From Armatimonadota bacterium (GTDB lineage Bacteria > Armatimonadota > Zipacnadia > Zipacnadales > VGFC01), in the NCBI GenBank assembly GCA_016869045.1, contig VGFC01000009.1:1-46475 (forward strand): a DNA stretch of 46,475 nt. Direction: 5' to 3'. Shown one piece after another: positions 16,784 through 42,346 of this stretch. The notes beneath the pieces are model-generated. The model ran no database searches. It had not been told where the DNA came from and worked only from the letters and a program-made list of their open reading frames with translations. Position 1 is the stretch's first letter. Every line of letters starts with the position of its first letter. Both the position numbers and the translations under genes were made by a program.

Positions 16784-17074
16784 ATGAAGATGCTCATGGT
16801 GTGCTGCGAGTCGGGCCTGCATCTGAAGGTGGTCGAGACGTTGGAGGAGGTGGGCGTGCCGGGCTACACGGTCTGCGAGAACCTGAAGGGGATGGGCTGC
16901 ACCGGCCGCAAGCAGGGCAGTCCCATCTGGCCGGGCAACAGCGTCGTCGTCCACACCTGCGTGGAGGACGACGCGATCCCCGCCATCGTGGACCGCGTGC
17001 GCCAGGCCCGCGACGACTACATCAAGCGCCCGGCGTGTGCGGTGTTCGCGGTGCCGGTGGAGAAGCTGTTGTGA
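16784..17074 (+). CDS. PII-like signalling protein
   Basis: This 96-residue protein has a ferredoxin-like fold pattern of the PII superfamily: MKMLMVCCESGLHLKVVETL, then VPGYTVCENLKGMGCTGRKQGSPIWPGNSVVVHTCVEDD and a C-terminal AVFAVPVEKLL. The loop with conserved glycines between strands 2 and 3 corresponds to the T-loop region that binds ligand in PII-like proteins. ATG 16784 has GGAGG at 16771-16775. It ends 25 bases before a glycyl radical enzyme, so they are probably co-transcribed; the PII-like protein may sense a metabolite or regulate that enzyme. It lacks the uridylylation tyrosine context of true GlnB. Cys content is high (six), which may also allow metal or redox binding. Confidence 0.65.
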   Translation: MKMLMVCCESGLHLKVVETLEEVGVPGYTVCENLKGMGCTGRKQGSPIWPGNSVVVHTCVEDDAIPAIVDRVRQARDDYIKRPACAVFAVPVEKLL

Positions 17075-17099
17075 AGGGCCGCTACCTCAGGAGCACCGG

Positions 17100-19307
17100 G
17101 TGAACCCACGCCTGCAGCAGTGCCGGCAGCAATCCCTCGAACGCGGCTTCTCGCAGTGGTCTAGCCCCAAGGAGAGTAACTGGTCGCACGCCTTCTTCGA
17201 GTTGTACGCCGACCTGCCGTTGTGGGAGCGGCAGGCGCGGAGCTTCGCGTATGCCCTGGCGAACGAGCCGCAGTACGTGTGGCCGCTGGAGCGGATCGCG
17301 GGGCAGATCTACCAGTGCTGCCCCGGCGCCGGGCAGCCGGACATGGGCGGCGTGGCGGGCGACGCACGCTGGGAGGCGTTCGCAGGTGACCGCGTCGCTG
17401 CACGCTGGCTGCGGGAGCGCATCCTGGACTACGACCAGAACGCGCCCGTGGTCGGCGATGGCGCGGCGCCCGGGCATGTCGGCTGGGACCACTCCCTGAT
17501 CCTCGGTCTCGGCACCCGTGGCCTGGCGGCGAAGTATGAGAAGGCCCTCCGCAACGGGCACGACGAGAAGGCCGAGGAGTTCTACCGCGCGGTGCTGATC
17601 GTTCTGGAGGGGCTGGACCTGTGGGTCGAACGCCTGGTGGCGAGGCTGCGCGAGGAGGCCGAAGCGACGGAGGACCCGGAGCGCCGGGGCGAGCTGCTGG
17701 ACATGGCCGGCATCTGCGAGCGCGTGCCGCGGGAGCCCGCGCACACGTTCCGCGAGGCGGTGCAGAGCTTCTGGCTCGAGTACCTCGCAGTGATGTACGA
17801 GAACCCCTACGGCGGCAACGGGCCGGGACGGCTGGACCAGTACCTCTGGCCCTACCTCGCGGCGGACTTGGAGCGCGGGACGATCACGCTCGACGAGGCG
17901 AAGGAACTGGTCATCGAGCTGTTCCTGAAGCTCCACGAGCGCATCGCGCCGCATGACGGGTGGGTCGAGGCGATCGTGGTCGGCGGGCGTACGCGGGACG
18001 GGAGCCTCGCGATCAACCCGCTCTCGCACGTGATGATCGAGGCCTTCATGGAGCTGAACCAGTCGCATCCGGCGCTGTATGTCCGCCTCCCGGATGATGC
18101 GCCGGACGACTTCGTCACGCTCACCGCGCGTTACCTGATCGAGGGCGGCAACCGCGCGCAGGTCTACAGCGACGATCCGATGATAGCGGCGCTCCACGCA
18201 GATGGCGTGGCGATCGAGGACGCCCGCGACTGGATGGCCGGCGGCTGCATGGAGGTCTCGCCGCAGGCCTGCAGTTCCGACTTCGAGTTCGCCTTCGCGC
18301 ACAATGTCGCGCTGATCCCGGAGTTCGTGCTCAACGGCGGGCGCCGGTTCGATAGCGAGACGCGGATGGTCCCCGAGACGCGCACGCTGCCGGATTACCG
18401 CACCTTCGAAGAGCTATACGGGGCCTTCGAGAGTGAACTCGCGCGGGAGATGGACCTCGTCTTCCGGCGGCTGGACGTGTATTGCGAGGCGTGGGCGAAG
18501 TACCGGCCGGCTTACCTACTATCCAGCATGACCCATGACTGCCTGGAGCGTGGGCGGTCGATCAACGACGGCGGCGTGCGCTACCCCGACTACGGCGGGT
18601 CGGGTGTCGGCCTCCCGAACGTCGGCGATAGCCTGTACGCGATCCGCCGCGCGGTGTTCGAGGACGGCTTCTGCACCGCAGAGGAGCTGCTGGAGGCCCT
18701 GCGCGCGAACTTCGCGGGCCATGAGCGCCTGCGCGCGCAACTGGCCGCCCTGCCCAAGTACGGCCAGGACGACCCCGAAGCCGATGCGATGACCGACCGC
18801 GTCCTGCGCAGCTTCACCGACCTGTGCCACAATCACCGCACGCCCCACGGCGGCCACGTCCGGCCGATCATCCTGGGCTTCGTGTGGGTCGTCACGATGG
18901 GGCAGCAGGTCGGCGCGACCGCCGACGGCCGCCTCGCCGGCCGCCCGCTCGCCCACGGCATGTCGCCGCAATGCGCCTCCATGACGCAGGGCATCACCTC
19001 GGCGATCAACTCGGCGACGCGCATCTCCCTCGGTGAGATCGGTGGCGGCGCCGGGATGATGTGGGACCTCGACCACTCGTGGGCGAGCGTCGAGGTGGTC
19101 AAGGGAATCCTCCGCACCTTCGCGAAACGCGGCGGCCAGATCTTCCAGGGCAACACCGTGGACGTGAAGACCCTCCTCGCCGCCCAGGAGAACCCGGAGC
19201 AGCACAAGCACCTCCTCGTGCGCGTCGGCGGGTTCTCGGCGCGGTTCGTGTCACTGTCGAAGGAGCACCAGGCGGAGATCATCGAGCGGCACAAGTTCGC
19301 TGGATGA
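17100..19307 (+). CDS. glycyl radical enzyme (pyruvate formate-lyase superfamily)
   Basis: This 735-residue protein carries both hallmarks of glycyl radical enzymes. The thiyl cysteine loop is MAGGCMEVSPQ (Cys383), and the C-terminal radical motif is RVGGFSARF (Gly711, 25 residues before the end). The PFL-like domain occupies nearly the whole chain, with EAVQSFWLEYLAVMYENPYGGNGPGRLDQYLWPYL in the N-terminal half. GTG 17100 is chosen from CAGGAG six bases upstream. Length and motif are closer to the dehydratase/lyase branches than to PflB, but the substrate-defining residues do not let me name one. Activity needs a radical SAM activase, which is not in the window and must act in trans. A PII-like protein precedes it. 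It is oxygen-sensitive by family, implying anaerobic or microaerobic growth. Confidence 0.88.
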   Translation: MNPRLQQCRQQSLERGFSQWSSPKESNWSHAFFELYADLPLWERQARSFAYALANEPQYVWPLERIAGQIYQCCPGAGQPDMGGVAGDARWEAFAGDRVAARWLRERILDYDQNAPVVGDGAAPGHVGWDHSLILGLGTRGLAAKYEKALRNGHDEKAEEFYRAVLIVLEGLDLWVERLVARLREEAEATEDPERRGELLDMAGICERVPREPAHTFREAVQSFWLEYLAVMYENPYGGNGPGRLDQYLWPYLAADLERGTITLDEAKELVIELFLKLHERIAPHDGWVEAIVVGGRTRDGSLAINPLSHVMIEAFMELNQSHPALYVRLPDDAPDDFVTLTARYLIEGGNRAQVYSDDPMIAALHADGVAIEDARDWMAGGCMEVSPQACSSDFEFAFAHNVALIPEFVLNGGRRFDSETRMVPETRTLPDYRTFEELYGAFESELAREMDLVFRRLDVYCEAWAKYRPAYLLSSMTHDCLERGRSINDGGVRYPDYGGSGVGLPNVGDSLYAIRRAVFEDGFCTAEELLEALRANFAGHERLRAQLAALPKYGQDDPEADAMTDRVLRSFTDLCHNHRTPHGGHVRPIILGFVWVVTMGQQVGATADGRLAGRPLAHGMSPQCASMTQGITSAINSATRISLGEIGGGAGMMWDLDHSWASVEVVKGILRTFAKRGGQIFQGNTVDVKTLLAAQENPEQHKHLLVRVGGFSARFVSLSKEHQAEIIERHKFAG

Positions 19308-30151: not shown

Positions 30152-32338
30152 ATGCGTGATCGCATTCGTCGCCTCTTGTCGTGGGCCTGGCGCCATAAGC
30201 TCATTGTCCTCGGTCTGGTCCTCCTCGGTTTGATCGGCCTCGTGTTTGCCATGCACCAGACGAGCGGACCGGCCTTCTGTGGCAGCTGCCACGAGATGGG
30301 CTACGAGCACCGCACGTGGAGCGCGTCGTCGCACCACGAGGTGGAGTGCTCGGCGTGTCATTACCATCCCGGCGTCATCGGGATGATCCGCACGAAGATG
30401 CAGGGCGCCCAGGAAGCGGTCTCCCACTTCCGCAAGGGATGGACGGAGTCGGAGATCGGCCCGGGGATGGCCGAGGTGCCCTCCACACGCTGCCTGAAGT
30501 GCCACGCCGAGACGAAGCTGCCGCAGGAGATCACGTACCACCTCCTCCGCCACACGCACCGCAAGCACCTGGAGCGCGGGGCGGAGTGCACGCAGTGTCA
30601 CGCGAATGTGGTTCACGGGGGCAAGGCGCCCTTCAAGAACACGCCGACGATGTCCTCGTGCCTCAAATGCCACGACGGCAAACAGGCGCCGAATGACTGC
30701 TCTCTGTGTCACCTGAAGCTTGGGGAGATCAAGCCGGCGCTGTACAACCCGGCGTGGGTGGAGCACCATAGGGAGAACATCGCAACCACCGGCCGGGACC
30801 ACTGCGTCCACTGCCACGGCGAGCAGTTCTGCCGGTCGTGCCACGCCGTGGGGCGCCCGCTCTCGCACACGTCAAACTGGGTGCGCGACCACGCGGAGAT
30901 GGATCCCAAGGATCGGCCGCAATGCGCCCAGTGCCACCCGACGCGCGGGGATCGCCCAGAGGCCGATTTCTGCACGGAATGTCATACGGCCCGGAGGGCG
31001 CACGGGCCGACATACATCCGCGAGCACCCGAAGGAGTTCCAGCGCGAACCCGACGCGTGCGGGCGCTGCCACAAGGAGCGGTTCTGCCAGGACTGCCACT
31101 CCATCTACATGCCCCACAAGACCGGCTGGCTGGCCGAGCACGGCGCGGAGGCCCGGCACCGACGCGACAGCTGCCGCACATGTCACAAGGACCAGTTCTG
31201 CGAGAGCTGCCACACCCGCGGCCGGCCGGCGTCGCACACCAGGGACTGGCGGACGACGCACCCTGGCGTCGCGCGTACGTCCGGTGAGGGCTGCCGTGTC
31301 TGCCATCCGACCGACTTCTGCCAGAGCTGTCACCGCAAGTCCCTGCCGGCCAGCCATCGGGAGAGGACGTGGATACGGGCGCATGGCGGAACGGCCCTGG
31401 CCAGCCGCAACTCCTGTCGGGCCTGCCACGACACAAGCTACTGCGCGTCGTGCCATCGGGGCGTCGCCATGCCGCACCCCTCCGGCTGGCTGCACAGCCA
31501 TCCGGCGAGCGGTCGCAACCCCCGGGCGTGTCAGGCGTGCCACCAGAAGGACTTCTGCGACGCCTGCCACCGCGGCTCGAAGCCCAAGACCCATGACGCG
31601 CAGTGGGGCCGCCGGCACGGGCCGCCGGCTCAGACGCAGAAGGCCTCCTGCCTGCGGTGTCACACGGACCGGAACTGCCAGGTCTGCCACCGCATTCCGA
31701 TGCCGCATCCGAAGAACATCCGCTCCGCTCACGGCCCGCTGGCCCGGGGCGAGGACGGCCGCTACTGCGGGCTGTGCCACAAGCCCGAGGTCTGCTCGGC
31801 ATGCCACATCCCGCGCTCGTCGATGCCCAGCTCCCACCGGACCGACCAGTGGCTGACGAAGCACGGCGACGCCGAGGGGCTGGATACGCGGTGCGTGCTG
31901 TGCCACAAGCCGAAGTACTGCCAGGACTGCCACGGCCTGCCGATGCCGCATCCCGAGAACTGGCTGCTGAGCCAGCACGGCTGCCTGGCCCCGTCAAGCG
32001 CCAAAATGTGCGCGAAGTGCCACGCCTCCGAATTCTGCCAGACCTGCCATGAGAGCACGCCCCCCGACTCACACGCGGTGGCGGACTTCCGACAGAAGCA
32101 CGGGGCCAATCCATCGCAGGAGCCGCTATGTGCTCTGTGTCACGGCCGCGAGGCGGCGAAGAAGCGGGATGCGTGCCAGACCTGCCATCGGGGCGTCACC
32201 ATGCCGCATGAAGAGCGCTACGCCTTCAAGCACAAGGCCGTGGCATCGTTTGAGTCGAAGGGAACTTGTCTCGGGTGTCATGAATTGAGCTATTGCAGGG
32301 TCTGCCACGCGGAGATACCCGCGCAGAAGCAGCAATGA
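30152..32338 (+). CDS. membrane-anchored 32-haem cytochrome c
   Basis: This 728-residue protein contains 32 CXXCH motifs. Residues 1-34 form an N-terminal membrane anchor and residues 41-70 (FCGSCHEMGYEHRTW...CSACHYHPG) resemble the NapC/NrfH quinol-oxidising domain. Six haems lie before residue 190. From residue 218 on, 13 pairs of motifs follow at about 40-residue intervals (first Cys at 218, 258, 303, 341, 381, 422, 460, 500, 539, 581, 620, 660, 706). Within most pairs the two cysteines are nine residues apart, giving CxxCHxxxFCxxCH. Each module also has (P/S)H and a later H, enough distal ligands for two bis-His haems. It probably carries electrons from quinol along a wire-like chain outside the membrane. 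Start ATG 30152; no strong Shine-Dalgarno is seen. Confidence 0.9.
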   Translation: MRDRIRRLLSWAWRHKLIVLGLVLLGLIGLVFAMHQTSGPAFCGSCHEMGYEHRTWSASSHHEVECSACHYHPGVIGMIRTKMQGAQEAVSHFRKGWTESEIGPGMAEVPSTRCLKCHAETKLPQEITYHLLRHTHRKHLERGAECTQCHANVVHGGKAPFKNTPTMSSCLKCHDGKQAPNDCSLCHLKLGEIKPALYNPAWVEHHRENIATTGRDHCVHCHGEQFCRSCHAVGRPLSHTSNWVRDHAEMDPKDRPQCAQCHPTRGDRPEADFCTECHTARRAHGPTYIREHPKEFQREPDACGRCHKERFCQDCHSIYMPHKTGWLAEHGAEARHRRDSCRTCHKDQFCESCHTRGRPASHTRDWRTTHPGVARTSGEGCRVCHPTDFCQSCHRKSLPASHRERTWIRAHGGTALASRNSCRACHDTSYCASCHRGVAMPHPSGWLHSHPASGRNPRACQACHQKDFCDACHRGSKPKTHDAQWGRRHGPPAQTQKASCLRCHTDRNCQVCHRIPMPHPKNIRSAHGPLARGEDGRYCGLCHKPEVCSACHIPRSSMPSSHRTDQWLTKHGDAEGLDTRCVLCHKPKYCQDCHGLPMPHPENWLLSQHGCLAPSSAKMCAKCHASEFCQTCHESTPPDSHAVADFRQKHGANPSQEPLCALCHGREAAKKRDACQTCHRGVTMPHEERYAFKHKAVASFESKGTCLGCHELSYCRVCHAEIPAQKQQ

Positions 32339-32352
32339 CGGAGGATCAGCTC

Positions 32353-33117
32353 ATGAAGACGGGTGCATGGATTGTCGCGATCGCCGTGATCGGCGCCCTG
32401 GGCCTGACGGTTCTCGCCCAGGAGCCCCAGGCCACCATTCCGGCCGACTCCGAATACGCTGGCTCGAAGCTGTGCGGTATGTGTCACAAGGATGAGAAGA
32501 CGGCTTTTGCGGAGACGCCGCACGCCAAATACGTGCCGCCGGCCGATGCGCTCGAGCCCTGGAAGCACTCCACGGGCTGGGACAAGGCCACGGGCGAAGC
32601 CAAGGAGCCGGGCGTTCAGTGCGAGGCCTGCCACGGTCGGGGCAAGACGCACGCGGGTGCGAAGACGGAAGACAAGAAGACCCTCATCATCAACCCGCTG
32701 AACCTCGACGCACCGGGCAAGATCACCTCGATCTGCGCCCAGTGCCACGCCTACTACAAGCCCAAGGAGGGCGACGCGCCGGTCGCCTTTACGCCGGGCG
32801 AGAACATCTTCGAGAAAATCGACCTGCTGCCCGTTGAGGAGGGCAAGGCCATGCAGCAGGTCAACGAACTCGTGGGCAGCCTGCACCATACGAAGCAGCA
32901 CATGACGTGCATTCAGTGCCACACCTCCCACACGGAGGGGATGATCCCGGGCAACCTGCGCAAGGCGGTTCCGGACCTGTGCGTGCAGTGCCACGCCGAC
33001 GAAGCCGACATCGCGAAGCATACGGAGGCGCACACAACGAAGGCCAAAGAGGGCGACACGTGCGACACGTGCCACATGCCTGACGACGTGCACACCTTCG
33101 CGAAGCCGCCGAAGTAG
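32353..33117 (+). CDS. periplasmic six-haem cytochrome c
   Basis: This 254-residue protein has a Sec signal (MKTGAWIVAIAVIGALGLTVLAQ) and six CXXCH motifs at residues 41, 90, 128, 186, 210 and 237. The lead YAGSKLCGMCHKDEKTAFAETPHAK is typical of cytochrome c554- and DmsE-like soluble carriers. ATG 32353 has GGAGG (32340-32344) eight bases upstream. An ATG at 32335 overlapping the TGA of the previous gene would add six residues. It is probably the mobile partner between the membrane proteins encoded on both sides. Its stop is followed immediately by a GTCTCNN array. Confidence 0.9.
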   Translation: MKTGAWIVAIAVIGALGLTVLAQEPQATIPADSEYAGSKLCGMCHKDEKTAFAETPHAKYVPPADALEPWKHSTGWDKATGEAKEPGVQCEACHGRGKTHAGAKTEDKKTLIINPLNLDAPGKITSICAQCHAYYKPKEGDAPVAFTPGENIFEKIDLLPVEEGKAMQQVNELVGSLHHTKQHMTCIQCHTSHTEGMIPGNLRKAVPDLCVQCHADEADIAKHTEAHTTKAKEGDTCDTCHMPDDVHTFAKPPK

Positions 33118-33244: not shown

Positions 33245-35170
33245 ATGCGTCCTGCCAAGCTGGACGGCGTGGCCCGCTGGGTGGCGGGCCTCGCCGTCGC
33301 TCTTATCGCGGTCGGTTCCGCTGCCGGGCAGGAGAAGTGCTTCACCTGCCACCCGGCGCCGGGCCTGGCCTCGCGCATTGCCCAGGGGCGGCATACGAGC
33401 CCCGAGGCGGAGGCGCTCGCCTTCAAGGGCGATGCCCACGTCAAGCTCCGCTGCGCGGACTGCCACCGCGAGGCCGCGACGGTGCCGCACCCGTCGGGAA
33501 TGCAGCCGGCGCAGTGCCAGAGCTGCCACTCGACGATCCGCGCGCACGTGCTGGACCATGGGCGCCCGGAGTTGAGGGGCAAGCTGCCGACGTGCGTCAC
33601 CTGCCATGGCTACCACCACGTACTCCGGGCCCATAACCCGGACTCACCCGTCTCGCACCGCAACGTGCCGGACCTCTGCCTGAAGTGCCACGGCGGCACG
33701 CTCGCCAGCCCCTTCGGATACGACCAGAGCGTCCACGGGCGCGCCCATCGGCGGGACCCGAATTCGGCGGCGGCCATCTGCACGGACTGCCACAGCGTGC
33801 ACCCGACGGCAAGGGGTGGGCATCTGCTCACCCTCGCAACCCGCGCTCGCGTACCCAGGACTTGCGGCCGCTGCCATGAGGAGGCTCTCAAGCAGTACGG
33901 GGGCGGTATCCACGGGGATGCGCTGCGACGTGGTTCGCCGGATGTGCCTGTATGCACAACCTGTCACGGCGCGCACCGCATCCTGCCTGCGAGCGGTCCG
34001 GCGTCGTCTGGGTACACCCGCTACGTTCCCGGAGCCTGTGGGGCCTGCCACGCCTCGGTGCGGCTGATGGCGGGTTACGGGCTGAGGTCCGACCTGTACG
34101 CCTCCTACCGCGCCAGTTTCCACGGCGTCGCCAACAACCTCGGTAGCCTGCAGGTCGCCAACTGCGCCAGCTGCCACGGTGCTCACGACATTCGCTCCTC
34201 ATCCGATCCGCGCTCTCGCACCCATCCGGCGAATCTGGCGAAGACCTGCGGTCGGTGCCATCCTGGGGTCGGACCGAATGTCGCGCGCGGCCAGGTCCAC
34301 CTTACGATCGCCAGGTCCAGCGAGCCGGTTGTGTACTGGGTGGCGTTAGGTTTCCGTTGGATCACGATCCTCGTGATGACCGCTCTGATTGGGCACATCA
34401 TCCTCGACCTCGCCGCCAAGATCCGACGGGGGGGCTTCCGCTCGCGGGAGGCGCGGCCGCCTGCAGCGGAGACAGACCACGTCGAGCGCTTCAGCCTGCT
34501 CATCCGCCTCCAGCACGCGGTTCTGGTGCTGAGCGTGCTCATCCTCGTCTTCACCGGGCTCCCGCTGCGCTTCCACGGCTGGGGCGTCTCCCGGCTGTTC
34601 TTCGACCTCGTCGGTGGCGTCCACGCCGCCGGCTTCCTGCACCGCATCGGCGCGGCGCTGCTGGTCGTGGTCAGCGGGTTCCACGTGCTCTGGGTCCTGT
34701 TTGGGCGCGAGGGCCGCCGCAACTTCCGGCAGCTCCTGCCCTCCTTCCATGATGTCCGCTGCGTGTTCGTGAACCTGCTCTGGTTCCTTGGGCTGTCGCG
34801 GGAACGGGCGCGCTTCGGACGGTTCAGCTACATCGAGAAGTTCGACTATTGGGCCGTCTACTGGGGCTGTGTCGTGATGATCGTCTCCGGGTTGCTGCTG
34901 TGGCACGAGGAGATCACCTTGCGGCTCCTGCCAAAGCTCTACACCGACGTCGCTCGCGAAGCACACAGCGATGAGGGGCTGCTCGCTGCCCTCGCGATCT
35001 TCGTGTGGCACTTCTACAACGTGCATCTGAACCCGGACCATTTCCCCATGAACTGGGCCTGGCTGACCGGCCGCATCTCCAAGCGGGAGATGGAGGAGCA
35101 CCACCCGCTGGAGTATGAGCAGCTTGCAGGCCACGCACCGACAGACGGCGTCGAGCCGGGAGATAGCTAG
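33245..35170 (+). CDS. 11-haem cytochrome c fused to b-type membrane cytochrome (CbcL-like)
   Basis: This is a 641-residue fusion. After a signal sequence there are 11 CXXCH motifs at residues 32, 70, 91, 117, 145, 179, 207, 237, 265, 307 and 335. The C-terminal 280 residues form a cytochrome b of the FdnI/HydC or thiosulfate-reductase type, with five hydrophobic segments (about 365-388, 424-442, 462-486, 534-553 and 577-594). Candidate haem-b histidines are His424, His480 and His589. This layout equals that of the Geobacter CbcL quinone oxidoreductase, which links the menaquinone pool to extracellular electron acceptors; the analogy is by architecture only. ATG 33245 has AAGGAA seven bases upstream. 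The gene stop touches the start of resB. Confidence 0.9.
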   Translation: MRPAKLDGVARWVAGLAVALIAVGSAAGQEKCFTCHPAPGLASRIAQGRHTSPEAEALAFKGDAHVKLRCADCHREAATVPHPSGMQPAQCQSCHSTIRAHVLDHGRPELRGKLPTCVTCHGYHHVLRAHNPDSPVSHRNVPDLCLKCHGGTLASPFGYDQSVHGRAHRRDPNSAAAICTDCHSVHPTARGGHLLTLATRARVPRTCGRCHEEALKQYGGGIHGDALRRGSPDVPVCTTCHGAHRILPASGPASSGYTRYVPGACGACHASVRLMAGYGLRSDLYASYRASFHGVANNLGSLQVANCASCHGAHDIRSSSDPRSRTHPANLAKTCGRCHPGVGPNVARGQVHLTIARSSEPVVYWVALGFRWITILVMTALIGHIILDLAAKIRRGGFRSREARPPAAETDHVERFSLLIRLQHAVLVLSVLILVFTGLPLRFHGWGVSRLFFDLVGGVHAAGFLHRIGAALLVVVSGFHVLWVLFGREGRRNFRQLLPSFHDVRCVFVNLLWFLGLSRERARFGRFSYIEKFDYWAVYWGCVVMIVSGLLLWHEEITLRLLPKLYTDVAREAHSDEGLLAALAIFVWHFYNVHLNPDHFPMNWAWLTGRISKREMEEHHPLEYEQLAGHAPTDGVEPGDS

Positions 35171-36637
35171 ATGGCCGGAGGCCAGCCGGCGATGACAAAC
35201 GAGGCGCAGGACGAAGGGTCCCTGACCGGCGGTCTGTGGGGCCTTCTGCAGTCCGTGCGTACCACCATCTACGTGCTCCCGGTCCTCGCGATCGCCACGA
35301 CGATCGGGGCCGTCATCCCCCAGAAGCGCCCGCCGGAATACTACGACATGGCCTATGGCCGCATGTGGGGCGGCGCCCTGACCGCGGTGGGGTTCGACAA
35401 CATCTACAACTCGACGTGGTTCATCATCCTCGTCGGCGTTCTGCTGCTGAACCTCGCGGCCTGTGTGGCACGGTCGTTCCGCCGGGCGGCGCGGCAGTAC
35501 CGAGGGCCCGCTCCCGAGACGCTCGCGAGGAAGCTCGAGGGCGGGCGAGGCTGCTGGCAGGCCAACTCGACGGACCCGGACGCCAAGGGCCGGCTGCTGG
35601 GAATGCTGCACCGAGCGCGGTTCGCGGTGACCGAGAGCACCGGGCCGAAGGGCCAGTCATGGCTCCTGGTCCGCCGCTGGCCGCTGGCCCACTACGCGGG
35701 AATCGTGACCCACCTCGCGATCTTCCTGGTGGCGGTCGGCGCGGTGCTCGGGCGGCTGCCGTGGACCTCACTCGATCAACGCATCACGTTCGCCGAGGGC
35801 GAGACGTTCCCGGACACCGATAAGAAGCTCGGCTTCGCAGTGCGGCTCGATCACTTCCGTATGGACTTCTACGAGGGCACCGACCAGCCGTCCCTGTACG
35901 AGAGCGACGTCGTGCTGCTCGACGGCGATCGGGAGCTGAGCAAGGGCATGGCCACGGTCAACCGTCAGGTCGTCTACCGGGGCGTGGCGCTGGGCCAGGC
36001 GAGTTGGGGCCTGGCGGGCGTGCGACTGACGGTCACCGGCCCGGACGGGAAGACCGAGCCGGCCAACCTGCCCCTCACCGAGATGGCCGGGCCTCATGGC
36101 GACACGACGTGGGGGTTCGAGGACCAGAGCCGGATCGCCATGCTCGGCGACCAGAAGAGCGCGCTGGTCGGCATGGAGTTCGTGCCCGACACGCAGGCGG
36201 GCAGCACCTACCCGAAGCACCCGGCTGTCGCCGTGCAGGTTGTCACGGGCCTGGCTGCGAAGGACCATCAGGTCCATGACGTGGGCACCGTGGGCCTGGG
36301 CGAGGAGCGTTCCGCCGGCGGTTACCGCGTGCGGTTCGACGACCTCGTCTACGTCTCGACCCTCTCGGTCCGCAAGGACCCAGGGCTGCCGCTGGTGTGG
36401 CTCGGGTTCATCCTGGTCTCCCTGGGGATGGCCCTCATGTTCTACGTCCGCCCGCGGGCGTTCCTGGTGGAGGTGGGCGAAACCGATCAGAGCCCGGAGG
36501 GCGTGGTACGCGTGGCGCCGATGGGGAGGGAGTTCGCCGAGGGCGATCGACGGATCATCGAGACCGTCTGTGGCACGCGCCTCACGCCGATGAGCGCTGG
36601 CGGCGGCCGCCGCAGTGGCAGGAGGGTACGTTCGTGA
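35171..36637 (+). CDS. resB: cytochrome c biogenesis protein ResB
   Basis: This 488-residue ResB/Ccs1 family protein belongs to the system II cytochrome c haem lyase, which with CcsA exports haem and attaches it to apocytochromes. It has four membrane helices (about 32-54, 79-101, 174-198 and 404-424) and a large periplasmic domain between the third and fourth. Family marks are TTIYVLPVLAIATTIGAVIPQ, the NSTWFIILVGVLLLNLAAC segment and the C-terminal PLVWLGFILVSLGMALMFYVRPR. ATG 35171 follows the previous stop without a gap. The gene ends in GTGA, overlapping the ccsA start, so the two are translationally coupled. The genes upstream need at least 49 haem attachments. Confidence 0.93.
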   Translation: MAGGQPAMTNEAQDEGSLTGGLWGLLQSVRTTIYVLPVLAIATTIGAVIPQKRPPEYYDMAYGRMWGGALTAVGFDNIYNSTWFIILVGVLLLNLAACVARSFRRAARQYRGPAPETLARKLEGGRGCWQANSTDPDAKGRLLGMLHRARFAVTESTGPKGQSWLLVRRWPLAHYAGIVTHLAIFLVAVGAVLGRLPWTSLDQRITFAEGETFPDTDKKLGFAVRLDHFRMDFYEGTDQPSLYESDVVLLDGDRELSKGMATVNRQVVYRGVALGQASWGLAGVRLTVTGPDGKTEPANLPLTEMAGPHGDTTWGFEDQSRIAMLGDQKSALVGMEFVPDTQAGSTYPKHPAVAVQVVTGLAAKDHQVHDVGTVGLGEERSAGGYRVRFDDLVYVSTLSVRKDPGLPLVWLGFILVSLGMALMFYVRPRAFLVEVGETDQSPEGVVRVAPMGREFAEGDRRIIETVCGTRLTPMSAGGGRRSGRRVRS

Positions 36638-37596
36638 GCAACGGCAAGCAGGCTGTTCCACCAAGCCCCGCGACCCCAGAGGCTGAAAGCCCCGTCGATC
36701 CGTTGGCGCCCGACCGCGTCGACGCGCTCACCTACCGCCTCGTCGCGATGGGGTTCATCCTGCTGACGCTGGTCATCATCACGGGGGCGGCCTGGGCGCA
36801 GTACACCTGGCACAAGTGGTGGAGCTGGGACCCCAAGGAGACCTCGGCGCTTGTGGCGTGGCTGGTGTACTTGGTCTACCTGCACGGACGCCTGCTCGGC
36901 TGGTCGAAGCGGCTCTTGGCGTGGATCGCGGTGCTCGGCGCCCTCGCGGTCATCTTCTGCTATGCGGGCGTGAACTTCCTCGGCGGCCTACACGCCTACG
37001 GCGCGCCGACTCAGAGCATTGCCGAGGGTGCCCGCAACGCCTTCCAAGGCATGCGAACGCTGGAGGCCACCCTCGCGAAGAGCTTCCTGGTCTTCTACCT
37101 GGTCGCGTTCGTGCTGTACCTGGGTGCGGCCGTGTTCGCCGCCGGTGAGGTTGACCCGGAGGCCGGCCGGTCCCACAAGGCCCGGCTGGCGTGGGTCGGC
37201 GCCATACCCACACTGATCGGCTTCATCCTACATACCATCGCCCTCGTCAACCGGTCCGTCGAGGCCGGCCACCTGCCGTTCAGCAGCGGCTACGAATACG
37301 CGGCCTCCTTCGCGTGGGCGATCGTGCTGGTCTTCCTGATCCTCCAGTTCCGCGTGCGCACGCCGGTGATCGGCGCGGCCTCGCTGCCCTTCATCCTCCT
37401 GATCCTCGCCTACGGTTTCCTCTGGTTCGGGGACAAGGGCGTCTCGCCGTTGCCGGTGGCCCTGCAGAACAAGTTCTGGCTCCACCTGCACGTGGCGATC
37501 GCCATCATCAGCTACGCCGCCCTCATCCTGGCGACGGCAACCTCGGCGATCTACCTCGTCAAGTCGAGGGGTACTCCGGAGACGGCGGAGTCGTAG
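36634..37596 (+). CDS. ccsA: CcsA/ResC haem lyase with circularly permuted halves
   Basis: This 320-residue CcsA family protein is the haem-handling partner of ResB. The C-terminal half of a normal CcsA comes first here: residues 30-55 (VDALTYRLVAMGFILLTLVII), then the WWD motif WWSWDPKET (62-70) and GVNFLGGLHAYG (112-123, His120). The normal N-terminal half comes second: FLVFYLVAFVLYLGAAV (151-167), GFILHTIAL (His200), GHLPFSSGYEYAASFAW (212-228), LQNKFWLHLHVAIAIISYAA (278-296; His284/286) and LVKSRG. All expected haem-ligand histidines and the WWD site are retained, so the permuted protein may be active. GTG 36634 has GGAGGGT six bases upstream and overlaps the resB stop by four bases. Confidence 0.88.
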   Translation: MSNGKQAVPPSPATPEAESPVDPLAPDRVDALTYRLVAMGFILLTLVIITGAAWAQYTWHKWWSWDPKETSALVAWLVYLVYLHGRLLGWSKRLLAWIAVLGALAVIFCYAGVNFLGGLHAYGAPTQSIAEGARNAFQGMRTLEATLAKSFLVFYLVAFVLYLGAAVFAAGEVDPEAGRSHKARLAWVGAIPTLIGFILHTIALVNRSVEAGHLPFSSGYEYAASFAWAIVLVFLILQFRVRTPVIGAASLPFILLILAYGFLWFGDKGVSPLPVALQNKFWLHLHVAIAIISYAALILATATSAIYLVKSRGTPETAES

Positions 37597-40536: not shown

Positions 40537-41031
40537 ATGGACGTGGATCAACTCCTCGACGAGCTGGAGGACATCATCGAGCGCGGCGAGCGCTTCTGGC
40601 ACATCTTCGGCGGCCGGGCGATGGTGCGGGCCGACCAGGTCTATGACGTGATCCACCGCGTCCGGGCGAGCATTCCCGAGGACGTTCGCCAGGTTCAGGA
40701 TGGCGGGCGCGAGCGGGAGCGCATCATCGATGAGGCCCACGGCGAGCGCGCCAAGATCATCGAGGCTGCCAAGGAGCAGGCACGACTGCTGGTGGATAAC
40801 GACCAGCTCGTGATCGAGGCGCAGCGCAAGCGCGATGACATCCTCGAGCGGGCCCGCATCGAGGCCGAGGGCATCCAGGCCGATGCGGAGCAGTACGCCC
40901 AGGACATCATCGCGAAGCTGGGCGAGTACCTGGGCCGCATCCAGACGGCGGTGGAGAACACCCGCGACATGCTTCAGCGTGATGCGGACGCCACCCGCCC
41001 CCAACCGGCATCGGAGAAGGACGCCACGTAG
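40537..41031 (+). CDS. coiled-coil protein of unknown function
   Basis: This 164-residue protein is almost entirely charged heptad-like helix between about residues 55 and 145 (ERERIIDEAHGERAKIIEAAKEQARLLVDNDQLVIEAQRKRDDILERA...). An N-terminal part MDVDQLLDELEDIIERGERFW precedes it and no signal sequence is visible. It resembles small DivIVA- or MukB-like coiled-coil proteins, often found near coaD in other bacteria, but I cannot assign a function. ATG 40537. It may be an adaptor or a cell-division or membrane-associated filament protein. Confidence 0.6.
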   Translation: MDVDQLLDELEDIIERGERFWHIFGGRAMVRADQVYDVIHRVRASIPEDVRQVQDGGRERERIIDEAHGERAKIIEAAKEQARLLVDNDQLVIEAQRKRDDILERARIEAEGIQADAEQYAQDIIAKLGEYLGRIQTAVENTRDMLQRDADATRPQPASEKDAT

Positions 41032-41041
41032 GGTGGCGAGG

Positions 41042-41105
41042 GTCGAAATTGGGGACAGGCACCAATCCTCGACGTCCAAGATTGGTGCCTGTCCCCGATT
41101 TCGAC
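41042..41105. repeat. long hairpin with GACGTCC loop, copy 1
   Basis: Arms at 41042-41067 and 41080-41105 are complementary over 26 bp with one mismatch. The 12-base loop contains GACGTCC (41071-41077). It lies between the coiled-coil gene and ackA, ending 14 bases before the ackA TTG. The copy at 42336-42408 shares the arm sequence type (GGGACAGG) and the loop heptamer. Confidence 0.85.
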
Positions 41106-41119
41106 CCGGGAGAGACCCC

Positions 41120-42346
41120 TTGAAGCTGCTGGTCATCAACTGCGGTAGCTCGTCGGTGAAGTACGCGCTCTATGAGATGGACACGGAGGCGGTGCTGGCC
41201 TCAGGCCTGGCCGACCGCGTCAGCGTGAGAGGCGGCGACGAGGCGACGCTGAAGCACGAGCCGGTCGGTCGCGACGCCATCACGGTCTCCCGGCCGATGC
41301 CCAACCACACCTCCGCCATCGGCCTCATCATGGAGGCGCTCACCGACCCCGCGCACGGCGTGCTCGACAGCGTGCGCGAGATTGAGGCGATCGGGCACCG
41401 GGTGGTACACGGCGGCACGAAGCACGCGAGTTCGGCGCTGATCGACGCGGACGTGATCGCCGCCATCGAGGCGTGCGTCGAGCTGGGACCGCTCCACAAC
41501 CCGCCGAACCTCGCGGGCATTCGGGCCTGTGCGAGCGTCCTGCCCGATACGCCGCAGGTGGCCGTGTTCGATACCGCCTTCGGACAAACCGTCCCGCCTC
41601 ACGCGTACCACTACGCAATCCCGCACGACCTCTATGGGAAGTACGCGATCCGGCGCTACGGCTTCCACGGCACGTCGCACCGCTATGTGTCGGGGATCGC
41701 CGGCGGCTTGCTGGCCGAGCGGGGTGTGCCTCGAGAGACGCAGCGGATCGTCACCTGCCATCTCGGGAACGGCTGCAGCATGAGCGCCGTGCTGGGCGGC
41801 GAGTGCGTCGATACCAGCATGGGCCTCACGCCGCTTGAGGGCCTCGTGATGGGCACGCGCTCCGGCGACATCGACCCGGCGCTGGTGTGGTTCATCATGG
41901 AGCATGAGGGCATCGACACGGACCAGGTCGATGCCCTGCTGAACAAGCAGAGCGGGTTGCTCGGCGTGTCGGGAATCAGCAGCGACATGCGCGACGTGCT
42001 CGCCGCCGAAGCGCAGGGCAACGAGCGGGCGAAGCTCGCCCTCGATGTGTACTGCTACCGCATCCGCAAGTACGTGGGGGCCTATGCGGCGGCCCTGGGC
42101 GGCCTCGATGCCCTCGTGATGACGGCGGGGGTCGGCGAGAACTCTCCGATCATCCGCCGCCGATGCGTGGAAGGGCTCCGGTTCCTCGGCCTGTGGCTCG
42201 ATGACGCGGCGAATGACGCGGTCGTCGGGCCGAAGCAGCCCCAAGACATCGCGCAGCCCGACAGCCCGGCGCGCATCTACGTCGTCCCGACGGATGAGGA
42301 ACTCACCATCGCGCGTGACACGAAGGAGATCGTAGGGCGAAATTAG
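41120..42346 (+). CDS. ackA: acetate kinase
   Basis: This 408-residue enzyme interconverts acetyl phosphate and ADP with acetate and ATP. Key residues are visible in VINCGSSSVKYALYE (Asn7 region), IGHRVVHGGTK (catalytic Arg), YGFHGTSHRYVSG (His), HLGNGCSMSAVLGG and MGLTPLEGLVMGTRSGDIDP (Arg). The last expected Glu is in MTAGVGENSPIIRR. TTG 41120 after CCGGGAGAG gives the standard MKLLVINCGSSS start. Its final residues and stop codon lie in the left arm of the hairpin at 42336-42408, where GTAGGGCGAAATTAG encodes V-G-R-N-stop. No pta lies next to it. Confidence 0.97.
   Translation: MKLLVINCGSSSVKYALYEMDTEAVLASGLADRVSVRGGDEATLKHEPVGRDAITVSRPMPNHTSAIGLIMEALTDPAHGVLDSVREIEAIGHRVVHGGTKHASSALIDADVIAAIEACVELGPLHNPPNLAGIRACASVLPDTPQVAVFDTAFGQTVPPHAYHYAIPHDLYGKYAIRRYGFHGTSHRYVSGIAGGLLAERGVPRETQRIVTCHLGNGCSMSAVLGGECVDTSMGLTPLEGLVMGTRSGDIDPALVWFIMEHEGIDTDQVDALLNKQSGLLGVSGISSDMRDVLAAEAQGNERAKLALDVYCYRIRKYVGAYAAALGGLDALVMTAGVGENSPIIRRRCVEGLRFLGLWLDDAANDAVVGPKQPQDIAQPDSPARIYVVPTDEELTIARDTKEIVGRN

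Follow-up and report, generated by a model that had tools for sequence, protein, structure and literature searches.

A 32-haem repeat cytochrome on a NapC/NrfH-like anchor in Armatimonadota: a putative membrane-tethered wire for extracellular electron transfer

The stretch of DNA analysed here, referred to as the window, covers positions 1–46,475 of contig VGFC01000009.1 from an Armatimonadota bacterium (assembly GCA_016869045.1), that is, all 46,475 nucleotides. It carries a gene for a repeat cytochrome, called the wire protein below, which is followed by genes for further multihaem proteins and for cytochrome c biogenesis (Table 1). The wire protein contains 32 CxxCH motifs, four of them in a head domain, two in a linker, and 26 arranged as 13 pairs in a tandem array. 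The initial annotation had placed the feature at 30800–32310; the gene itself begins ahead of this interval, at 30152, and six further haem motifs (residues 43, 66, 114, 146, 170 and 183) precede the array.

Table 1. Features of the wire gene and of the genes that follow it, in window coordinates.
Feature	Coordinates	Strand	Remarks
32-haem NapC/NrfH-headed repeat cytochrome ("wire")	30152..32338	+	ORF, 728 aa, about 82 kDa peptide
Single N-terminal transmembrane helix, about residues 16–35, putative inner-membrane anchor	30197..30256	+	KLIVLGLVLLGLIGLVFAMH; one hydrophobic segment, inside NrfH alignment
NapC/NrfH-like tetrahaem head, residues 20–155, CxxCHxM at 43–49	30209..30616	+	PF03264, NrfH of 2j7a
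Linker with two further haem motifs (170, 183), residues 170–187	30659..30712	+	CLKCHDGKQAPNDCSLCH; Cys/His invariant in 15 orthologues
Module 1, residues 218–257	30803..30922	+	x4 core, His 239 and 247
Module 2, residues 258–302	30923..31057	+	insert, CxxCHx11CxxCH, His 284 and 292
Module 3, residues 303–340	31058..31171	+	x4 core
Module 4, residues 341–380	31172..31291	+	x4 core
Module 5, residues 381–421	31292..31414	+	x4 core
Module 6, residues 422–459	31415..31528	+	x4 core
Module 7, residues 460–499	31529..31648	+	x4 core
Module 8, residues 500–538	31649..31765	+	x4 core
Module 9, residues 539–580	31766..31891	+	x4 core
Module 10, residues 581–619	31892..32008	+	x4 core; sole free Cys of the protein (611)
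Module 11, residues 620–659	32009..32128	+	x4 core
Module 12, residues 660–705	32129..32266	+	insert, CxxCHx10CxxCH
Module 13, residues 706–728	32267..32335	+	x4 core, not followed by a distal His
Six-haem cytochrome	32338..33117	+	partial similarity to DmsE/GSU2203 decahaem family
CbcL-like protein, 11 CxxCH and C-terminal cytochrome b561 domain (PF01292)	33245..35170	+	
ResB (System II cytochrome c biogenesis)	35171..36637	+	PF05140, E 1e-55
CcsB/CcsA-type (System II cytochrome c biogenesis)	36637..37596	+	TIGR03144, 201.7 bits, above cut-off 187.6

The 13 first-cysteine positions listed in the initial annotation, which are the module starts of Table 1, proved exact throughout, and each opens a pair of CxxCH motifs. 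Successive modules start 38–46 residues apart. The compact CxxCHx4CxxCH core, which had been ascribed to every module, is exact in 11 of the 13, whereas the two motifs are separated by 11 residues in module 2 and by 10 in module 12. Likewise, the two distal histidines described for each module are present in modules 1–12, where at least two non-motif histidines lie downstream of the pair, one a few residues past it and another about eight residues further, but not in module 13, since the protein ends after its second CxxCH. Because module 13 lacks distal histidines and H205 and H206 stand ahead of module 1, a register in which the histidines come first is also possible. The ligands for the two haems of module 13 would have to come from this head-side register, from another chain or from a partner. 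The suggestion that each unit could bind two bis-His haems is supported by the presence of histidines for such ligation in essentially every unit; among 201 extracted modules, all have at least two spare histidines, 165 have exactly two, and the commonest spacing between them is eight residues.

The periodicity of the array is far from what its composition alone would produce. In 2000 residue shuffles of the repeat region, CxxCH occurred 0.55 times on average and five times at most, against 26 observed, and no shuffle held more than a single CxxCHx4CxxCH pair, whereas the protein has 11. GC3 is high in the reading frame. At the DNA level, the module copies are mostly 60–77% alike, with the exception of one 35-nt pair (86%) and one 25-nt pair (80%), so that the duplications must be old. 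The protein is also very economical in peptide, using 22.8 residues per haem over its whole length and 19.7 in the 26-haem array. Electron-transfer cytochromes whose length is proportional to haem number and which have less than 5 kDa of peptide per haem have been described as 'peptide minimized' (PMC7096707), and the wire protein, at 2.56 kDa per haem, falls under this limit.

The NapC/NrfH-like anchor recognised in the initial annotation was confirmed. The head matches PF03264, the NapC/NirT cytochrome c N-terminal family, with an E-value of 1.3e-14 and 54.7 bits against a cut-off of 24.1. The solved NrfH structure 2j7a is matched as well (E 6.4e-7), over a stretch that takes in the one membrane helix and CxxCHxM as the first motif. 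The single N-terminal anchor and four-haem head that mark the NapC/NirT group are present, as hydrophobic residues 16–35 and CxxCH at 43, 66, 114 and 146. A role as NrfH partner of NrfA in nitrite reduction was rejected, since the NrfH equivalog TIGR03153 is not reached (56.1 bits against a cut-off of 134.2) and no PF02335 protein, that is, no NrfA (cytochrome c552), was found among the window genes scanned. Quinol oxidation is the activity for which NapC-type heads are mostly known. By this homology, the head of the wire protein may likewise oxidise quinol at the quinone pool.

Homologue searches covered relatives, the whole phylum (291 genomes) and named genomes, and all sequences came from MAGs. 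A full-length wire, with the head and the greater part of the array matched, is encoded in 14 of the 291 Armatimonadota genomes including its own, with E-values below 1e-150. In the genomes searched, these matches show the long headed wire to be an Armatimonadota family. Homologues with other repeat numbers, the existence of which had been raised as a check, were indeed found with the pitch maintained. The orthologues in the 13 other genomes are 35–45% identical to the window protein, keep the anchor, and mostly carry 10–13 modules at a pitch of about 38–43 residues. Nearly all members of the full-length family have 28, 30 or 32 haems; one relative has 20 haems and seven modules. Among the aligned orthologues, which are 35–44% identical to the window protein, the cysteines and histidines show little or no variation in the head, in the linker and in most modules.

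Changes in module number fall mostly in the C-terminal half of the array. The pattern of long and short modules (40 and 38 residues) in the first half is largely common in position among orthologues, and on this basis the array does not seem to expand freely. When single modules were compared by best match, the result was only roughly position-specific. A regular alternation of long and short modules, which would make a four-haem super-repeat, seemed probable by eye but was rejected, since the 66 alternating steps compare with a shuffle mean of 61, and 375 of 2000 shuffles were as high.

The two-haem module also occurs outside the headed family. Headless versions are found in secreted-type proteins with 5–8 units. 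On one contig (G041:C66), a 32-haem headed wire (L027) lies a few kb from a headless relative with 20 haems and eight modules (L016). In another family (f13), the module stands behind cytochrome b; at loci L010 and L090–L096 (genomes G048, G233, G237, G238, G240 and G241), about 6–8 two-haem modules follow a bc-type cytochrome b and a monohaem domain in one fused chain. Additionally, Actinomycetota, for instance Ca. Aquicultor, encode short proteins of 10–12 haems with this module. Several module matches each were obtained in Actinomycetota MAGs G292–G296, G299 and G301–G303, mostly in frames of 300–400 residues with short arrays, and these frames often form adjacent gene pairs. No relatives were found among viral contigs or in PHROGs.

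Some of the genes that follow the wire gene have counterparts in other wire clusters. In the wire cluster of genome G245, counterparts were found of the six-haem cytochrome (34% identity over 203 aa) and of the CbcL-like protein (41% over 517 aa, encoded next to the wire). Genes for b561 proteins or for multihaem–b561 fusions are present in the wire cluster of 11 of the 14 full-length-wire genomes by Pfam, or of 12 when G053 is included, whose gene was assigned only by its position, nine haems and six helices. The G053 cluster (L099) holds a set similar to that of the window, with a decahaem–barrel fusion, ResB, a seven-haem protein, a CcsA/CcsB-type protein, the nine-haem protein with its six-helix part, and the wire. 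In several loci the b561 gene abuts the start of the wire gene or runs into it, and no b561-type gene was seen in wire clusters L021 and L022. Elsewhere in the window, positions 17037–19307 encode a pyruvate formate lyase-like glycyl radical enzyme and positions 40835–42346 an acetate kinase, hinting at a fermentative carbon metabolism in the same organism.

Candidate outer-membrane conduit genes, pairing an MtrA/DmsE-type cytochrome with a beta-barrel, are also associated with the family. In L021 and L022, a DmsE/MtrA decahaem gene and then an MtrB/PioB- or GSU2204-like barrel gene lie upstream of the wire, and in L025 the corresponding position holds a decahaem gene and then a 555-aa gene without a family match. 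Decahaem–barrel fusions are encoded in L098, L099 and L100 (L098:3793–6888, plus strand; L099:3324–6326, plus strand; L100:11854–14778, minus strand). These chains of about 1000 residues consist of a DmsE/MtrA-type multihaem part and a beta-barrel-like part ending in Phe, and apparently represent MtrA and MtrB as one polypeptide. The window's own operon contains no porin; a DmsE-like gene followed by a barrel gene lies on another contig of the same genome (C285), where the barrel is cut by the contig end. Over 381 residues, this barrel is 28% identical (E 3e-38) to the barrel beside the wire in G012. Against PF11854, the porin candidates gave weak scores or none. A TIGR03508 match is present in 14 of 14 wire genomes and in 84 of 277 others (Fisher p 1.3e-7, a value uncorrected for shared ancestry).

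Structure prediction was less informative. The AlphaFold model of the full-length wire (15 rows) reached a pLDDT of 50 and a pTM of 0.26 and was too weak to use. For a five-module fragment with 47 register-matched rows, the values were 71 and 0.37, and short helices recur in each module. No solved fold matching the models was found by Foldseek and VIA-align. Among PDB sequences, a module profile found only weak matches, the best with an E-value of 0.0004; they were cytochrome subunits of photosynthetic reaction centres, and the similarity was judged to be driven by CxxCH.

Taken with the NapC-type anchor, the b561 partner and the genes for an outer-membrane conduit, the peptide-minimized mass is most simply read as the mark of a tethered periplasmic wire. 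With moderate confidence, the protein is proposed to be a quinol-pool-linked, inner-membrane-tethered haem wire for extracellular electron transfer. The N-terminal helix and the NapC/NrfH-type head would hold it at the quinone pool, with the head sitting next to the b561-type (CbcL-like) quinol oxidase encoded by the same cluster. Electrons would enter at the head and cross the periplasm along about 26 bis-His haems, which are expected to be loaded and stacked linearly in the 13 two-haem modules. A decahaem cytochrome of the DmsE/MtrA type, seated in an outer-membrane barrel, would receive the electrons from the wire by direct contact and pass them out of the cell. ResB and CcsB from the same cluster would support haem attachment. 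About 27 haems in one chain have been calculated to be necessary for spanning a 200 Å periplasm (PMC7096707), and by the published proportion of length to haem count, 28–32 haems would reach about 207–237 Å, the width of a periplasm.

A further proposal is more tentative and is put at slightly below an even chance. Since anchor and periplasm-length wire would be joined in one polypeptide, no shuttle between inner and outer membrane would be needed, and the number of modules might set the length of the wire and so serve as a molecular ruler of the envelope, the arrays being short in Actinomycetota and mostly of 10–13 modules in Armatimonadota. Several observations count against the wire reading. 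The six-haem cytochrome of the operon could be a shuttle, which would be needless beside a full-length wire, and one family has only 20 haems. Additionally, the structural models are weak and match no fold, the porins are absent from the own operon and score poorly against PF11854, and the data come from MAGs throughout.

The main rival, considered unlikely, is that the array serves chiefly as an electron capacitor, storing electrons at the inner membrane in the absence of an acceptor and forming no bridge to the outer membrane. Storage is favoured for periplasmic monomeric nanowires such as GSU1996 of Geobacter (PMC10138318), the 26 extra haems would provide a large capacity, and the adjoining six-haem cytochrome could act as a shuttle. 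Nevertheless, a store does not require the clustering at 28–32 haems seen in nearly all full-length orthologues, and the association with porin and decahaem genes also argues against it. Less likely still is an extended quinol dehydrogenase hub, in which the array would dock several soluble periplasmic partners with no continuous wire to the outer membrane. CymA supplies electrons to several partners in the periplasm (PMC7096707), and a range of 7 to 13 modules and the other multihaem proteins of the wire clusters would suit such a hub. However, so little peptide per haem leaves little specific docking surface, and the strong linear periodicity of the array is also at odds with it.

The quinol oxidation for which NapC-type heads are generally known speaks against a reversed flow, that is, an inward conduit feeding the quinone pool from iron or mineral oxidation, and this reading is regarded as improbable. 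In its favour, CbcL/MtoC/MtrH-type proteins occur in Fe(III) reducers and Fe(II) oxidisers alike (PMC6295460), and an Armatimonadota MAG is reported to carry MtoAB-like genes (PMC9671151). That the array is a sequence artefact or a chance periodicity has a negligible probability; Cys/His-rich sequence does inflate generic cytochrome matches such as PF14522, but nothing was found in support of an artefact, and the shuffles, the retention of Cys and His in orthologues at 35–45% identity, and the high GC3 of the frame all contradict it.

Armatimonadota have few cultivated members. The crossing of the periplasm, roughly 200 Å wide, is usually explained by diffusing shuttles or transient complexes. 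Bridging candidates named earlier have 21–24 haems (PMC7096707). The family described here is conserved and has 28–32 haems and its own anchor; its genes cluster with that of a b561-type quinol oxidase and often with genes for an outer-membrane conduit. With this family the direct-wire model becomes testable. Moreover, the regular unit of 38–40 residues, with about 20 residues per haem, is naturally suited as a building block in synthetic protein wires.

A published description of a 32-haem headed wire was not found in the open-access literature, and the initial annotation's view that an anchor joined to a two-haem repeat is unusual is upheld by a survey of three known families of quinol oxidases/reductases in extracellular electron transfer, in which the combination is absent (PMC6295460). 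The wire protein shares with NrfH and CymA (NapC/NirT/NrfH) the N-terminal helix, the four-haem head and the CxxCHxM first motif; known members such as CymA are tetrahaem proteins (PMC6295460), whereas the wire adds two haems and 13 two-haem modules. ImcH, which is used in extracellular electron transfer, likewise has a NapC-like domain extended by further c-haems. ImcH homologues, however, mostly have three transmembrane helices and 6–10 haem motifs and are not encoded beside mtrAB (PMC6295460), while the wire family has one helix and 28–32 haems; with one helix and 32 motifs, the window protein was not identified as ImcH. Proteins of the CbcL/MtrH/MtoC type combine 3–23 haems and a cytochrome b part in one chain (PMC6295460), and the wire lacks PF01292; a CbcL-like protein, whole or split, shares the wire cluster as a neighbour and is not the wire itself.

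Among wire-like proteins, the dodecahaem nanowires GSU1996 and GSU0592 of Geobacter also consist of small haem domains repeated along a single chain, and they have been solved, with haem edge distances of 3–5 Å (PMC10138318). Their repeat is a c7 domain that holds three haems, one of them with His-Met ligation, whereas the wire has two-haem modules of 40 aa on a membrane anchor, and the wire protein has no match to TIGR04257 (c7-type triheme domain). MtrA/DmsE decahaem proteins are likewise peptide-minimal wires and are neighbours in several wire clusters, but have Paired_CXXCH-type spacing and no anchor, unlike the wire gene. PCC3 of Fe(II) oxidisers, with about 21–24 haems in repeats, has been suggested as a periplasm bridge next to a porin (PMC5566968, PMC7096707). 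It uses a separate five-helix membrane protein, no NapC-type head being described, and spends 22–39 residues per haem (median 26; PMC5566968), against 22.8 overall and 19.7 in the array of the wire. The PCC3-like locus L067:7443–14342 encodes 21-haem and 60-haem proteins, then an 807-residue frame that is a possible porin. The PCC3-like protein of L067 has motif gaps of 12, 13 and 28 and no x4 pairs, a difference in spacing that rules out PCC3 as the identity of the wire. The giant extracellular MHC that is a trait of PCC3 clusters was found neither in the window nor in the wire clusters inspected. Periplasmic haem wires are already known; what is new is this anchor together with this two-haem module, a combination present in none of CymA, ImcH, CbcL, GSU1996 and PCC3.
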